From a virus: DNA of 23,766 nucleotides. The stretch lies in the IMG/VR virus record IMGVR_UViG_3300048027_000156, positions 1 through 23,766 of that record. One strand, 5' to 3'. The stretch's first letter is position 1; each line of letters begins with the position of its first letter. A program made the position numbers and the translations under genes. Positions 9,989 to 21,778 of this stretch are shown here, piece by piece. The notes under the pieces were generated by a model. It had not been told where the DNA came from. It saw nothing but the letters and a program-made list of their open reading frames with translations, and searched no databases.

Positions 9989-9997
9989 GTATTTATC
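9989..9997 (-). promoter_or_regulatory. T4-type late promoter (GATAAATAC) overlapping the helicase stop codon
   Basis: Minus-strand TTGATAAATACACT. The first bases supply the TGA stop of the helicase gene (9996-9998), so the early replication gene ends exactly where the late operon begins. The predicted +1 near 9984 gives a leader of about 15 nt with GGAG. Confidence 0.7.
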
Positions 9998-11405
9998 AAG
10001 TTTCGTCAAAAGCGGAACGAGACTTAGTTTTGAGCATTGCTCTAAGCGATGATGCAGCTTGCCCGTTGTCCATAACAGGCGTATCATCGTCTTCTTTAGT
10101 AACAGTTGTCTTCTTACGTAGTTGATCCACTACACTTGAAGTACCTGAACTAGTAATATTGTTGTCTGAATTTTCACTTGTATCATCTGAGATACGCAAA
10201 CTATCTCTATCGAATACAAGATTTACTTTACTACCTACACCAGATGATGAACGTGTTTTTAGAAGTTGCAATTGATACTGACCACGCTCACGCATAGCAT
10301 TAGATGTAAAGATACCAATAACGTTATCTGCTGTTTGAATTTTAGAGATACCGCCTGCGATATGTGAGTGATCGAATTCAATTTCTTCAACTGCACTACG
10401 GTTCAACTGTGATGCTGTTACCAATACAGACCCAGTCTCCATAGCGAAGTTACGCATTTCTTCTGTTACATATTTGTCTTTAGTATAAGTATCGCCTGCT
10501 TGCACTTTCATAGTAGCAGGAGTAAGAAGGTCGAGATAGTCAACGCACAAACAATCGACCTTCTTACCTGTCTGGATTTGTAGTTCTTTCAGATATGACC
10601 TAATGTCATTAACGCTTGACCCTGATGGGAGATATTTGATTCTAAGCTGTCCGGACTGTTTACCTTTTGCTTTGACCATCAGTTCCACTTCGTCTAAACT
10701 CTTAAAGATGCCTTTTGTACTTCTGTCCGTCTGCATTGCATACATACGCATCGATGAAAGCGATTCTGAAAGTTCCAGAGTGATGTAGACACAATTAAGA
10801 CCAGCCTCTGCCCAATTCAGACTCATATTTTGCATGAAAAGTGATTTGCCTGCGCCAGAGCCCCCTGCAAAAATCGTGATCTCCCCACGATTAATGCCAC
10901 CATATAACTTATCATCAAGGGCTTTCCAGCCTGTAGTCATTTGACCGTTATCGTCTTTCAGTCCTTCCAATACACCTCTAGGGTCAGCAAAATAATCTGT
11001 ACCCAATGAACGTGCCAGTCCGGTTTGAACTGCTTCCTTGATTCTAAGTTCTACTTCACCGTATTTGCCAGTCTCCAACAAATCAGCACTATCGATAATA
11101 GCCTTCTCAATAGCCTTATGTCGGCAGAATGTTTCAAATTCATCAACGAACCATTCGATATGCTGGTCGATGTTATCCAGTTTTTCTACAGTTACTCCCG
11201 TTTCTGCCTTGACCATTTCAAGACTTGGGATAGATGAATATTCATCACTGTGTTCGATCAACTGCTTGACCACAGGACGGACGCTGCGGTCGAAGTATTC
11301 AGGCTTAATGATACTACGAACCCTTGAATAAAGTTCTGGATCACTAAACATGAATTGTACGAATAGTTGCTGTAAATCTGAGCTATAGTTTTTTACTTCT
11401 GACAT
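9996..11405 (-). CDS. gp41: Replicative DNA helicase, T4 gp41-like (DnaB family)
   Basis: 469 aa. It unwinds DNA ahead of the phage fork and works with the gp61-type primase. The N-terminal domain covers about residues 1-130. The RecA-like core has Walker A GGSGAGKS (181-188), Walker B around DCLCVDYLDLL (284-294), the TASQLNR motif with Q333, and a KTRSSSGVGS segment (383-392) that fits the arginine-finger/DNA-loop region. Length and motif order fit gp41. The C-terminal 60 residues are polar and variable. It has its own strong promoter with perfect TTGACA, and no leader is expected. The SGNH gene ends just upstream. Confidence 0.92.
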   Translation of the reverse strand: MSEVKNYSSDLQQLFVQFMFSDPELYSRVRSIIKPEYFDRSVRPVVKQLIEHSDEYSSIPSLEMVKAETGVTVEKLDNIDQHIEWFVDEFETFCRHKAIEKAIIDSADLLETGKYGEVELRIKEAVQTGLARSLGTDYFADPRGVLEGLKDDNGQMTTGWKALDDKLYGGINRGEITIFAGGSGAGKSLFMQNMSLNWAEAGLNCVYITLELSESLSSMRMYAMQTDRSTKGIFKSLDEVELMVKAKGKQSGQLRIKYLPSGSSVNDIRSYLKELQIQTGKKVDCLCVDYLDLLTPATMKVQAGDTYTKDKYVTEEMRNFAMETGSVLVTASQLNRSAVEEIEFDHSHIAGGISKIQTADNVIGIFTSNAMRERGQYQLQLLKTRSSSGVGSKVNLVFDRDSLRISDDTSENSDNNITSSGTSSVVDQLRKKTTVTKEDDDTPVMDNGQAASSLRAMLKTKSRSAFDET

Positions 11406-12718: not shown

Positions 12719-13717
12719 CTATCCTAAACGCATCTTTACGTTAATCTTTGTACTATTACTTATGCTTCCGTCGATTATACTTTTGAGAGTATAAAGTTTA
12801 CCATATCTTTGTATTGCATCACCTGCATCTTTTAAATCGTCTTCCCATCTTGGGAAAGAAACTGACCAGCCATTTTCAATTGCTTGCTTGATTAGTTTCT
12901 CGCCTGCTTTGTCTCTGTCGGGGCAGACAACGACTTCACCCTTAAACTGATTAATATAATCAATTTGTGTATCACTTGCTTCGTTACTCATAATCGCTAC
13001 TGCATCTAAACATGCCGCATCAATCGTGCCTTCTGTTACTATCAAGTATTTTCTATTTCGTTTGATAGCATCTATATTGTAGAGAAAGTCTTTTGGCGTT
13101 TTGCTCATATACTTAGCTTCATTCTTACCAGTAAAGTCTCTGCCACTATATCCAACAACTCTATCGCCTTGGTAAAAAGGAAAGATAACTCTTTGTCTGA
13201 ATACAGGATGCGGAGACCAATAAGTTTCTACAAAATCGTATATGCCCCTATCTAATAGATATTTAGCGGCTGATATAGCACGTACATCTGGTTCATCATC
13301 ACGTAGTATATCTTCTAATAATCGTGCGCCTTCGGGAAGTTCACATTCTTTAAATGATGGTATACGTGTTGTTTGTGTCTTACTAATGAATAATGTTGGA
13401 CCATCTGCTAATTCTTTTTGTCTAATAGCATCAAGTTGTAATCGTTTAATATCACTTTCTGGCATTCCCAGATTGCGTAGTAATACTAGCATCTTCTTAT
13501 TAAGAACCCTACCAGATTTATGTGACGCTGTAAATCCGCAATTAAAGCAATGATATGATACACTTTCGTTGTCACTTCTGATACCGCCACGTTGACGTGT
13601 ATCATTACGTGCTTCGCCATTATCTACACAACATGGACAGTTAAAAGACAACCATCCACCTGATGATTGTCTTCGCTGATGTGGCAAATGTGAATATATT
13701 GCTTGTTGTAATTCCAT
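12719..13717 (-). CDS. gp61: DNA primase, T4 gp61-like
   Basis: 332 aa. It makes RNA primers for lagging-strand synthesis with the gp41-type helicase. An N-terminal zinc-binding domain has CPCC (C27, C30) and CFNC (C57, C60). The TOPRIM core includes YLIVTEGTIDAA with E229 and VVVCPDRDKAG with D267 and D269, and QRVIFPFYQGDRVVGYSGRD precedes it as in DnaG-type enzymes. Length fits gp61. It is preceded by TTGACA-N17-TATATT with 6 nt to the ATG and heads the primase-ClpP-SGNH operon. Confidence 0.9.
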   Translation of the reverse strand: MELQQAIYSHLPHQRRQSSGGWLSFNCPCCVDNGEARNDTRQRGGIRSDNESVSYHCFNCGFTASHKSGRVLNKKMLVLLRNLGMPESDIKRLQLDAIRQKELADGPTLFISKTQTTRIPSFKECELPEGARLLEDILRDDEPDVRAISAAKYLLDRGIYDFVETYWSPHPVFRQRVIFPFYQGDRVVGYSGRDFTGKNEAKYMSKTPKDFLYNIDAIKRNRKYLIVTEGTIDAACLDAVAIMSNEASDTQIDYINQFKGEVVVCPDRDKAGEKLIKQAIENGWSVSFPRWEDDLKDAGDAIQRYGKLYTLKSIIDGSISNSTKINVKMRLG

Positions 13718-14919: not shown

Positions 14920-14923
14920 AGTT

Positions 14924-14932
14924 GTATTTATC
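14924..14932 (-). promoter_or_regulatory. T4-type late promoter (GATAAATAC), leaderless spacing
   Basis: Minus-strand GATAAATA ends at 14925, then five bases (CAACT) to the ATG at 14919. By T4 late-promoter geometry +1 is the A of the ATG. It is back-to-back with the plus-strand late promoter at 14957-14964. Confidence 0.75.
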
Positions 14933-14956
14933 TCCCAGGAGCACTAAATTTTTTTG

Positions 14957-14964
14957 TATAAATA
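14957..14964 (+). promoter_or_regulatory. T4-type late promoter (TATAAATA), leaderless spacing
   Basis: A perfect TATAAATA followed by five bases (TAATT) and the ATG at 14970. The expected +1 is the A of the ATG. It is the only exact T4 octamer found placed before a gene in the window and the only plus-strand promoter. Confidence 0.75.
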
Positions 14965-14969
14965 TAATT

Positions 14970-15359
14970 ATGATTGATGATGAAAAGGCCAAATGGATAC
15001 AAGAGAATTATCCGTTCTTCTCTTGCTTACGTTACGGCAAAAAAGAATATATTGAGTACATTGGTATTTTAATTAATACTGATAATGTAATTACCTCTAT
15101 GTATAATTTTGAAGCGATACCAACTCCAGAATTGCGAAAAGAGTTTATTGAACTTGGAGAACAGTGGTGGTGGGAGTCAAACAGACTTATACCAATTAAC
15201 TTGTTCTTGGGATCACAAATTTCAGTTTATAAAAACTGGATTACGAATATGAATTCTAAAGATGTGCAAATTATGTGGGGACCAGAAACGTCATTGAATA
15301 ATATTATTCAAAAACGTATTAAGCGCCGCTCTGTGCAACTTGTTCGCAAAATAGATTAA
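14970..15359 (+). CDS. Hypothetical late protein, 129 aa; only convincing plus-strand gene
   Basis: The frame extends upstream to a TTG at 14922, but the first ATG at 14970 sits exactly at the expected start of the TATAAATA late transcript, so that start is chosen. No ribosome site fits it. The protein contains YGKKEYIEYIGILINTDNVI and ELGEQWWWESNRLIPINLFL, with three consecutive tryptophans, and ends in a basic patch (QKRIKRRSVQLVRKID). Function is not recognised. It runs towards and overlaps the DnaE-like gene by 41 nt, and a candidate terminator lies about 20 nt after its stop at 15380-15405. Confidence 0.7.
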   Translation: MIDDEKAKWIQENYPFFSCLRYGKKEYIEYIGILINTDNVITSMYNFEAIPTPELRKEFIELGEQWWWESNRLIPINLFLGSQISVYKNWITNMNSKDVQIMWGPETSLNNIIQKRIKRRSVQLVRKID

Positions 15360-15912
15360 GCTGAACTACGATACTTACTGCATACGCCACCGCGTGTGCT
15401 TTTTTAAAATAGTAAGCATCACCTGATGGTTTAATCCATACTTCTGATTTGATTACTTCTTTAGTTTCATTCAGCAAATGTCTTTTTGCTGGACGAATAA
15501 TAGCCAGTACCTCTGCAAGTTCCATAACACTCTGTGGCTTTAAAATACGCAATACATCAATATGATTTGAAACGTGTGCTAAATTCTCTACAACTTCTGG
15601 ATGTTGAAATAGATCCCAAACAGGTTCACGTTCCATTAACTTAATTAGATGCTCTTCATCACGGACACCATTGTATAGTGAGTTATTAAGAAAGTCTAGT
15701 TTGAAATATCCTCGTTCTTCTGCTTCTTTATACTCAATGCTTGCTAAATTAGATGCAGGATCATGTGGTATCTTACTAACATAAACACCACTATTGTGCT
15801 TTGTGTATACACCGTTCTTATTGATAGACGCAGGAATGTGTTGCAGTTTTTCTAGAACTACATCACGGTTCAATACATCAATATCAATATCTGTTTGTGT
15901 TTTCATTTCCAT
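15319..15912 (-). CDS. Miniature DNA polymerase III alpha (DnaE/PolC)-like protein
   Basis: 197 aa (195 if the ATG at 15906, which forms ATGA with the upstream stop, is used). Motifs of C-family polymerases occur in the right order. TDIDID (7-12) resembles the catalytic PDIDxD. HNSGVYV (39-45) resembles HAAGVVI. YFKLDFL (69-75) resembles KFDFLGL. LRILKPQSVMELAEVLAIIR followed by PAKR (121-144) resembles the LKP...ALYRPGP segment. FKKAHAVAYA (169-178) resembles FNKSHAAAYA. The PHP, tau-binding and OB domains are missing, and the core is about half the usual length. It could be a remnant, a decoy for the host polymerase, or a new small enzyme. Fold relation is fairly sure, activity is not. It is the last gene of the long operon. 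Confidence 0.65.
   Translation of the reverse strand: MEMKTQTDIDIDVLNRDVVLEKLQHIPASINKNGVYTKHNSGVYVSKIPHDPASNLASIEYKEAEERGYFKLDFLNNSLYNGVRDEEHLIKLMEREPVWDLFQHPEVVENLAHVSNHIDVLRILKPQSVMELAEVLAIIRPAKRHLLNETKEVIKSEVWIKPSGDAYYFKKAHAVAYAVSIVVQLNLFCEQVAQSGA
15380..15405 (+). terminator. Candidate plus-strand Rho-independent terminator inside the opposing gene
   Basis: GCAUACG (15380-15386) pairs with CGUGUGC (15393-15399) around a 6-nt loop, with one U-G wobble, and six U residues follow. The wobble works only in plus-strand RNA. It would end the 14970-15359 transcript. The same bases encode the Lys-Lys-Ala-His-Ala-Val-Ala-Tyr segment of the DnaE-like protein on the other strand. Confidence 0.65.
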
Positions 15913-19798: not shown

Positions 19799-20270
19799 CT
19801 GGGATTCTATTCAAGTCTTTAACAAAATATGCACACTTTGGTTTATCACCATGTTCTAATGGAATAGTAAGAATATGACCGTATTTCAATTTAGGAAAGA
19901 ACCATTTAACATCTGCGAATACGTTATTCACACGAATGGGCTCCCATCCCATAGTAAAGCCTCCAAGCGGATTAGTGATGATTGTATCGAAGCTACGTTC
20001 ATTAATACTTGTAAGTGGAATAAATTCTAATTGACCCAAGTCACGGTCCCCAATGAGAATATTCCAATCAATTGGCATTTCAATTGTATGAGAACCAATG
20101 TTTAATGAAATACTTGGAGCGTTAAATGTTTCAATAAACACCAGTGGTATAAAGAAGAAATCGGGTTCCTCTTTGTCAGTAACATCCATAACGCAATAAC
20201 GTATATCTTCTATTTCTTCTGGTAGACTATTCATTTCGAATGTCTTATTTTCTGGTGTTAAAATTTTCAT
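19770..20270 (-). CDS. Conserved hypothetical protein, 166 aa
   Basis: It reads as a beta-rich protein with a distinctive central block: FFFIPLVFIETFNAPSISLN, then IEMPIDWNILIGDRDLGQLE and FIPLTSINERSFDT. KWFFPKLKYGHILTIPLEHG and CAYFVKDLNRIPDVL follow. I recall this block (LPLxFxExFNAP... MPxDWxILIGDxxxGxLE... PLTSxNxRxF) from conserved proteins of marine T4-like phages with no assigned role. Its ATG overlaps the UvsW stop as TAATG, so it is translated with the helicase and may be tied to replication or recombination. Confidence 0.65.
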   Translation of the reverse strand: MKILTPENKTFEMNSLPEEIEDIRYCVMDVTDKEEPDFFFIPLVFIETFNAPSISLNIGSHTIEMPIDWNILIGDRDLGQLEFIPLTSINERSFDTIITNPLGGFTMGWEPIRVNNVFADVKWFFPKLKYGHILTIPLEHGDKPKCAYFVKDLNRIPDVLNSYDFF

Positions 20271-21778
20271 TAGTATTTTACCTTATCAATTGTGAATGGA
20301 TATTCTGCATCCTTATAAAACTTTTTGCGTTCAGTTAGGTGTCGCTTGGCAAACTTACATCTACTTGTGACGTCCCAGATTTGAACAAAATCTTTATCTT
20401 TTGCCACACGAACACCGCGACCGATAGACTGTATAACACGCACAAAAGACTTGCCAGGCTCCAAAAGAACCAAGTTGAAAATGCGAGGGATGTTAATACC
20501 AACAGCGGCAACGCCATAAGTAGCAATAGTGATTGAATTAGTAGCTTCATTTATGTCCTTATATGCTGTTTTTCGATCATCAGATTTCATTGAGCCTTGT
20601 ACGAAATCTGCTTCGGGCAACAGTTCTTGTAATTTGTTTCCTGAATTAATACGACTTGTCAGCACAAGTGTATTTCCTGTTTGCGATACTTCTTTAATCA
20701 TATTCGCAATAAATTCTTGTCGTTTATCATCTTCTAATAAAAATTTAAGTTCGCTCTGATAGTTAGAATACTCCCCAGTTTCCTGTGTCTGTATGACATT
20801 CACATGACAGTTTGACAGAACACCAATATCTTGTAGTTCTTTTGCTGCTAGTCTATTGACAACATCTCCCAAACTTGCACGAATAGTTGCAAACTCATGA
20901 TCCGATTTTGGGATAGTTCCTGTCAGACCCCATCGCAATGGTACATTTGCAAACACGCTCGTTAGCAAGTCTTTTAGTACGTCTGCTTTTGCCTGGTGTA
21001 CTTCGTCAACCATAACGCATACAACATCTTCGATAAAATCCATGATGTTGTCTTCACCCTTTTTAGTTTTCTTCAACAGACTATTGAGTGATTGCCATGT
21101 ACAAATAGTGTGCGTTTTGCCAATATCTTTACGGTCGCCGAAGTACACCCCGGCATCTAACCCACAGTTGATATAATCTTCTTCGGTTTGCCGTACCAAA
21201 TCCTTATTCGGTACAATTACGATAGTGCGTCCATACTTCTCTGCTAACTTAGATAATGTAGCAGTCATAATGGTCTTGCCTGCACCTGTCGCAATCTCTT
21301 GCAAACACTGTGGGTTCTCAATAAATTTATTTACTACCTCAACTTGATAGTCGCGTAGCATAATTTCCTGTCCCTCGACAGGATGACCTTCAGGCCAATT
21401 AACACCCTGGTCAGCCCAGAAGCGTTCTGATACTTGTGTGAATTCTAATGCTTCACTAGTACGATGGTCATCTACTTCAATTTCATAACCAGCTTCCATA
21501 ATAATAGGAAGCAGATCATCAAGTAAATTAATATATGTACGACCGCCAACGTCACAAAAGCGAACAGTACCATCCCAACGTCCTAACTTATATGCTGGCA
21601 TATGATATGCATGGGGCAAGAAAAACTTCAAAGCATCAGAACACTTGCGCCGCGTTGCCGGATCAAGCCCGTCTAACTTAACGTTCACTTCATCTTTAAT
21701 TACTATCGTACATTTCTTCAATTGAACATCCAATCCATCATCATCTGTGCTTCTTCTGATAGATGCTCTGGTCCCCAT
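20270..21778 (-). CDS. uvsW: UvsW-like recombination/repair helicase (SF2)
   Basis: 502 aa from the ATG at 21778, though that start overlaps the upstream gene by 61 nt. A TTG at 21721, forming a 4-nt TTGA overlap, gives 483 aa and fits the usual UvsW N terminus better. Motifs: RDYQ (Q motif, 142-145), ATGAGKT (163-169), DEVH (258-261), LTGT (285-288), and QSIGRGVR (450-457). N-terminal residues 20-80 (KLGRWDGTVRF region) match the UvsW DNA-binding part. UvsW branch-migrates recombination intermediates, dissolves R-loops and reverses stalled forks, helping the switch from origin- to recombination-primed replication. Confidence 0.9.
   Translation of the reverse strand: MGTRASIRRSTDDDGLDVQLKKCTIVIKDEVNVKLDGLDPATRRKCSDALKFFLPHAYHMPAYKLGRWDGTVRFCDVGGRTYINLLDDLLPIIMEAGYEIEVDDHRTSEALEFTQVSERFWADQGVNWPEGHPVEGQEIMLRDYQVEVVNKFIENPQCLQEIATGAGKTIMTATLSKLAEKYGRTIVIVPNKDLVRQTEEDYINCGLDAGVYFGDRKDIGKTHTICTWQSLNSLLKKTKKGEDNIMDFIEDVVCVMVDEVHQAKADVLKDLLTSVFANVPLRWGLTGTIPKSDHEFATIRASLGDVVNRLAAKELQDIGVLSNCHVNVIQTQETGEYSNYQSELKFLLEDDKRQEFIANMIKEVSQTGNTLVLTSRINSGNKLQELLPEADFVQGSMKSDDRKTAYKDINEATNSITIATYGVAAVGINIPRIFNLVLLEPGKSFVRVIQSIGRGVRVAKDKDFVQIWDVTSRCKFAKRHLTERKKFYKDAEYPFTIDKVKY

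Follow-up and report, generated by a model that had tools for sequence, protein, structure and literature searches.

The 197-aa protein encoded at 15319-15912 of the window (the whole 23,766-nucleotide stretch of viral DNA that was analysed) is best read as one of two subunits, the C-terminal one, of a C-family (DnaE-type) nucleotidyltransferase, whose N-terminal half (N half, about 172 aa) is encoded as a separate gene in related phages. The two halves probably pair into some form of heterodimer capable of catalysis. The split arrangement is already known, having been predicted in 2021, and the protein described here adds a member to it. Homology, break point, co-occurrence and residue conservation were computed; physical assembly, catalysis and biological role are what we infer. 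The gene and its catalytic segments are located as follows.

15319-15912, minus strand: C-terminal half (C half) of the split mini-DnaE, phrog_11778, 197 aa, with the DIDID, HNSG, KLD, RPAK and FKKAH motifs
15877-15891, minus strand: DIDID catalytic strand, residues 8-12 (E. coli DnaE D401/D403/D405)
15688-15702, minus strand: KLDFL, residues 71-75 (E. coli K553/D555), containing the third catalytic Asp

The ORF is confirmed as genuine. It is read from the minus strand, starts with ATG and encodes 197 aa, and the plus strand across the same interval holds many stops. The original prediction had recognized DnaE landmarks in this protein, arranged in their DnaE order, and this is borne out: TDIDID, HNSGVYV, YFKLDFL, IIRPAKR and FKKAHAVAYA are all present in that order, at residues 8, 39, 71, 138 and 169 respectively. 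A regular expression describing the ordered motifs matched both the 197-aa protein and E. coli DnaE, and was found in 0 of 200,000 shuffles of the former and in none of the remaining ORFs of the window. The protein matches the phrog_11778 'DNA polymerase' profile with an E-value of 1.2e-69 (residues 3-191 on profile positions 3-194 of 197) and phrog_405, the full-length phage DnaE family, with an E-value of 3e-4. When it was used as a lone query, no match was returned by Pfam scan, NCBIfam scan or phmmer against the PDB; the Pfam DNA_pol3_finger cut-off was exceeded by two C-half homologues when scanned by themselves, those of XacN1 and CM1. The dN/dS ratio of the gene, calculated against its two nearest relatives, is about 0.07-0.085, which indicates purifying selection.

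The conserved positions D8, D10, D12, H39, K71, D73, R140, F169 and H173 correspond to D401, D403, D405, H511, K553, D555, R639, F756 and H760 of E. coli DnaE. H39 lies in the HNSG block, K71 and D73 in KLD, R140 to K143 in RPAK, and F169 to H173 in FKKAH. When the profile of the C half was compared with that of DnaE (E-value 2.9e-8), the aligned region began at DnaE H511 and ran up to the RPGP motif, DIDID and FKKAH lying on either side of this core. The local alignment spans H39-K143; global alignment with hhalign forced the ends and placed DIDID and FKKAH wrongly, and both were therefore assigned by pattern and invariance. A residue census was taken over 113 unique C halves, with a mean pairwise identity of 57% and a lowest sampled value of 35%. 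D8, D10, D12, H39, G42, K71, D73, R140, P141, K143, F169 and H173 are invariant in all 113 sequences, so that the acidic residues and the KxH motif, whose conservation among homologues had been proposed as a check, proved invariant or nearly so. K143 and W159 are new invariants specific to the C-half family. The Asp set that defines the C family and is absolutely conserved in it consists of D401, D403 and D555 (PMC3919608), all of which are found in the C half as D8, D10 and D73. D405 is conserved in DnaE and is replaced by Asn in PolC (PMC3919608); as D12 of the C half corresponds to D405, the family is DnaE-like. The original prediction was thus well founded in its claim that a T4-like phage, where a B-family enzyme is normally used, has a protein homologous to the C-family palm and fingers, and the catalytic acids are conserved.

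Two further statements of the original prediction had to be revised, namely that no landmark motif of the polymerase core is missing and that this core is compressed to half its length. The protein lacks GPGRGS of the palm as well as the YQEQ and RRAMGKK blocks of the fingers, and is in fact the C-terminal half of a core split over two genes. The GPGRGS triphosphate-binding motif, absent from the 197-aa chain, is present in the partner N half. The PHP domain, the thumb, the full fingers (YQEQ, RRxxGKK), the HhH and the beta-binding regions are likewise absent from the 197-aa protein, together with the OB and tau-binding parts and everything located C-terminal of the fingers. The loss of the thumb is apparent from the D12-H39 spacing (27 residues vs 106 in E. 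coli DnaE), and that of most of the fingers from the R140-F169 spacing (29 residues vs 117). In the DnaE reference alignment, YQEQ (686-689) and, within RRAMGKK, R709, K714 and K715 are invariant; these fingers residues have no room in the 29 residues between R140 and F169 of the C half. The string QLNLF was considered as a clamp-binding motif and rejected, position 184 being Q, H or N and the F occurring in 3 of 27 relatives.

The start of the C half and the end of the N half define the break point. The C half begins at the catalytic PDxDxD strand; its consensus start is MPDIDIDF, the native sequence with which many C halves open, and the gene thus begins at the equivalent of E. coli DnaE M399. 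The CBB genome paper (PMC5259590) notes CBB_328, which is 172 aa long, as a 'truncated' Pol III alpha. CBB_328 is of the partner type, that is an N half, and the C-half homologue in the same phage is CBB_287. Several C-half homologues, including CBB_287 and the GAP32 entries, are labelled 'putative membrane protein' despite being the catalytic half. The C-terminal end of CBB_328, GLGRGSSVSSYCLYLIGLHLVDSIKYELDVNEFLKW, is the DnaE block GPGRGS...ERFL that directly precedes PDFDVDF, and the block that follows next in DnaE is the start of the 197-aa protein. Profile comparison of the N half with DnaE gave an E-value of 1.7e-10 over E. coli residues 320-396, and its PDB matches end at DnaE residue 392. 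Among about 95 N-half ORFs, nearly all stop 0-6 residues from EFLK, which is equivalent to F391-L392 of E. coli DnaE, and none extends more than 9 residues past it. The break therefore falls in a loop of about 6 residues between E. coli L392 and M399. GxGRGS is invariant in 83 of 83 unique N halves (mean identity 40%), and DnaE R390, invariant in the reference alignment, is apparently Glu in N halves (conserved EF). No homology was found when the C half and the N half were compared to each other, and the two are therefore complementary pieces and not duplicates. No ORF containing both halves was found among the fetched loci.

The structures of both halves were modelled with AlphaFold2 and confident predictions were obtained (C half: pLDDT 88.5, pTM 0.75; N half: pLDDT 87.8, pTM 0.67). 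A Foldseek search of the PDB with the C half returned DnaE or Pol III chains exclusively at ranks 1-10, with a best E-value of 5e-3 and a probability of up to 1.00; with the N half, ranks 1-17 were all DnaE or PolC. The confident PDB matches of both predicted structures were limited to DnaE and PolC. TM-scores of these matches are modest (0.36-0.47), as would be anticipated when half a domain carrying large deletions is compared. The fold comparison suggested with the original prediction thus gave DnaE as the best match of the C half, and the modelled fold matches the DnaE palm and fingers.

Relatives of the C half (phrog_11778) occur in 63 phage records, nearly all of them jumbo myophages of the RaK2/121Q/CBB, PA5oct/Paride, Atu_ph07/Phosso and SCTP-2 types, and in more than 100 metagenomic viral loci. 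Co-occurrence of the two halves was evaluated in 21 long records, consisting of 8 isolate genomes (CBB, Paride, Phosso, Vibrio 2.275.O, Atu_ph07, SCTP-2, XacN1 and CM1) and 13 metagenomic contigs, none shorter than 200 kb. Six of the latter were fetched by the N half and 7 by the C half, and the co-occurrence was thus tested in each direction. One C half, one N half and a B-family polymerase are found in all 21, the genes of the two halves being separated by 15-224 kb. G026 is the long record most closely related to the window; its C half is 71% identical and its N half lies 84 kb away. By extension from these 21 long relatives, the phage from which the window derives would also carry an N half and a B-family polymerase, the 23.8-kb window being too short to include them. 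A single listed C-half record is devoid of a listed N half, and this is a partial record of 110 kb. The N half and the B-family polymerase are absent from contigs of 25-101 kb, which were judged uninformative because the C-half, N-half and B-family genes are far apart. Five shorter contigs (110-191 kb) were fetched by the N half and none of them holds a C half, which is read as fragmentation.

The C-half gene is placed between uvsW and the primase-helicase genes, next to a convergent gene. The neighbours in the window are the following.

14922-15359, plus strand: conserved convergent gene, phrog_11637, function not assigned, a neighbour and not a component of the enzyme; its overlap with the 3' end of the C-half gene is 41 nt
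12719-13717, minus strand: Toprim (DnaG-type) primase, same replication block, downstream of the C half
9996-11405, minus strand: DnaB-type replicative helicase (T4 gp41-like), same replication block
20270-21778, minus strand: UvsW-like helicase, same replication block, upstream of the C half

A phrog_11637 homologue is found within the flank in 129 of 134 C-half loci, and its convergent layout with the C half is repeated in loci L042, L043 and L044. A virion-protein-like gene lies near the C half in 120 of these 134 loci. The N half is located directly upstream of the gp44 clamp-loader gene, and the genes of both halves are thus located in replication blocks.

The proposed mechanism can be briefly summarized as follows. 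The N half would supply the GxGRGS loop, whose role in DnaE is to bind the incoming nucleotide through its triphosphate. The C half would supply the catalytic strand (D8, D10, D12), K71, D73 and a fingers module that is shortened and has FKKAH at its end. One pol-beta-type palm would be rebuilt by the two halves together. The resulting enzyme may act as a low-processivity polymerase for a special step, such as gap filling or lesion or primer-end extension, beside the B-family gp43-type replicase; low processivity is expected from the loss of the thumb, the PHP domain, most elements of the fingers and the regions that bind clamp and tau. Whether the predicted heterodimer, with an active site drawn from two separately encoded chains (the triphosphate loop on one, all metal-binding Asp on the other), performs templated DNA synthesis is a question on which we stand about evenly balanced. 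The loss of YQEQ, R709, K714, K715 and the thumb, the apparent replacement of R390 by Glu and the absence of the partner gene from the 23.8-kb window all count against a competent heterodimer.

The main rival reading, which we regard as unlikely though worth serious consideration, is that the halves form a nucleotide- and metal-binding complex that no longer copies DNA and acts as a regulator or a non-templated nucleotidyltransferase in the phage replisome. The loss of the thumb and of the YQEQ and RRxxGKK fingers elements, the retention of a full B-family replicase in the genome and the appearance of family-specific invariants such as K143 and W159 would all fit such a complex. However, none of the 113 unique sequences departs from the full catalytic set, D73 and K71 included, and such constancy is difficult to account for without two-metal catalysis. 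A decoy or adaptor entering the host replisome, as the original prediction had proposed, is highly improbable: homology to the host DnaE is all that speaks for it, whereas the PHP domain and the beta-clamp-, tau- and epsilon-binding regions are absent and QLNLF is unconserved in relatives. An active site kept invariant is, moreover, not something that a decoy requires, and this reading leaves the partner half without explanation. The idea of a self-sufficient minimal polymerase of 197 aa, also put forward originally, fares just as poorly; all metal-binding Asp are indeed present in the chain, but the G[GS] triphosphate-binding element of the fold lies in the N half, a separate gene co-inherited in 21 of 21 long records. 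A remnant of a decaying host-derived dnaE might account for the short length and the missing domains, but this reading, the least credible of all, is already contradicted by the dN/dS ratio, the invariance seen in over 100 diverse phage sequences and the fixed ends of both halves.

A number of other split or minimal DnaE genes were encountered. Members of a marine phage clade carrying the C half also encode an unsplit, PHP-less DnaE of about 550 aa, located about 6-7 kb away beside a gp41-type helicase; the contigs examined in this clade were all about 101 kb or shorter. This protein keeps DVDID, the KVD motif and the RRxxxKK fingers element, and has at least 188 relatives in IMG/VR. In Bacteroides phage BS-TP1 (PQ571274), a full-size DnaE is encoded in two parts and is broken at the same place, after FERFLLPER and before LPDVDNDF; a Dda-like helicase gene separates the two. 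Their additional ends resemble split-intein parts by eye, and no intein was reported by a Pfam scan of the first part. The pair phrog_13169 and phrog_12219 is apparently split in the same manner, and a split of the BS-TP1 type is a possible route to that of the jumbo phages. The match of phrog_7513 (461 aa, function not assigned, reached via L064 and L053) to the DnaE N-palm ends near its C-terminus, at position 444 of 461, which suggests another DnaE broken at the same site. In Bacillus phage KLEB27-3, DnaE is annotated as two CDS with an HNH endonuclease gene between them, possibly as a result of an intron or intein insertion. The coordinates of these genes are given below.

L065:154-1803, minus strand: unsplit PHP-less DnaE of the marine clade, also found in L015, L016, L020, L223 and L272-L351
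L053:1825-3555 and L053:4795-6312: full-size DnaE of BS-TP1 in two parts
L228:2798-4873 and L228:5882-7168: the two DnaE CDS of KLEB27-3

The closest known system is the phage-specific minimal Pol III alpha described in silico by Iyer et al. in 2021 in 'group 2.2' jumbo phages (PMC7824862). Two genes far from each other encode it, one for an N-terminal protein that binds NTP and the other for a C-terminal protein that binds Mg and template, and a family B polymerase is present alongside; the authors suggested that it cooperates with the latter and is ancestral in character (PMC7824862). With the same split (phrog_11778 for the C half, phrog_11127 for the N half), distant genes and a B-family polymerase, the present case shows no difference in kind, and the 197-aa protein is a further member, found on a metagenomic contig; the split having been described in 2021 (PMC7824862), the polymerase type is not new as originally proposed. 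The literature search found no report of an experimental test of whether the two halves work together. With E. coli DnaE, the C half shares D401, D403, D405, H511, K553, D555, the RP motif and F756/K758/H760; unlike it, the phage enzyme consists of two chains and is devoid of PHP, thumb, HhH, beta-binding, OB and tau-binding regions and of most of the fingers. CBB_328 (PMC5259590) belongs to the same family but is the other (N) half. The T4 gp43-type B-family replicase is present in the same phages, and its fold is unrelated to that of the mini-DnaE.

Beyond the work of Iyer et al., the present analysis adds the exact break point, a two-way co-occurrence count, a residue census of both halves, a list of the lost DnaE elements and, for each half, a confident model. 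An active pair would be the smallest C-family polymerase, with about 370 aa in total and neither thumb nor PHP domain, and would show how little of DnaE catalysis needs. A pol-beta-type active site could then assemble from two freely encoded chains, and jumbo T4-like phages would run two unrelated DNA polymerases, the second inside a T4-like replisome. The pair is small and apparently free of host factors, and may offer a simple experimental model for the replicase family of all bacteria. It also bears on whether the minimal forms are ancestral, as suggested by Iyer et al. (PMC7824862), or derived by breakage.
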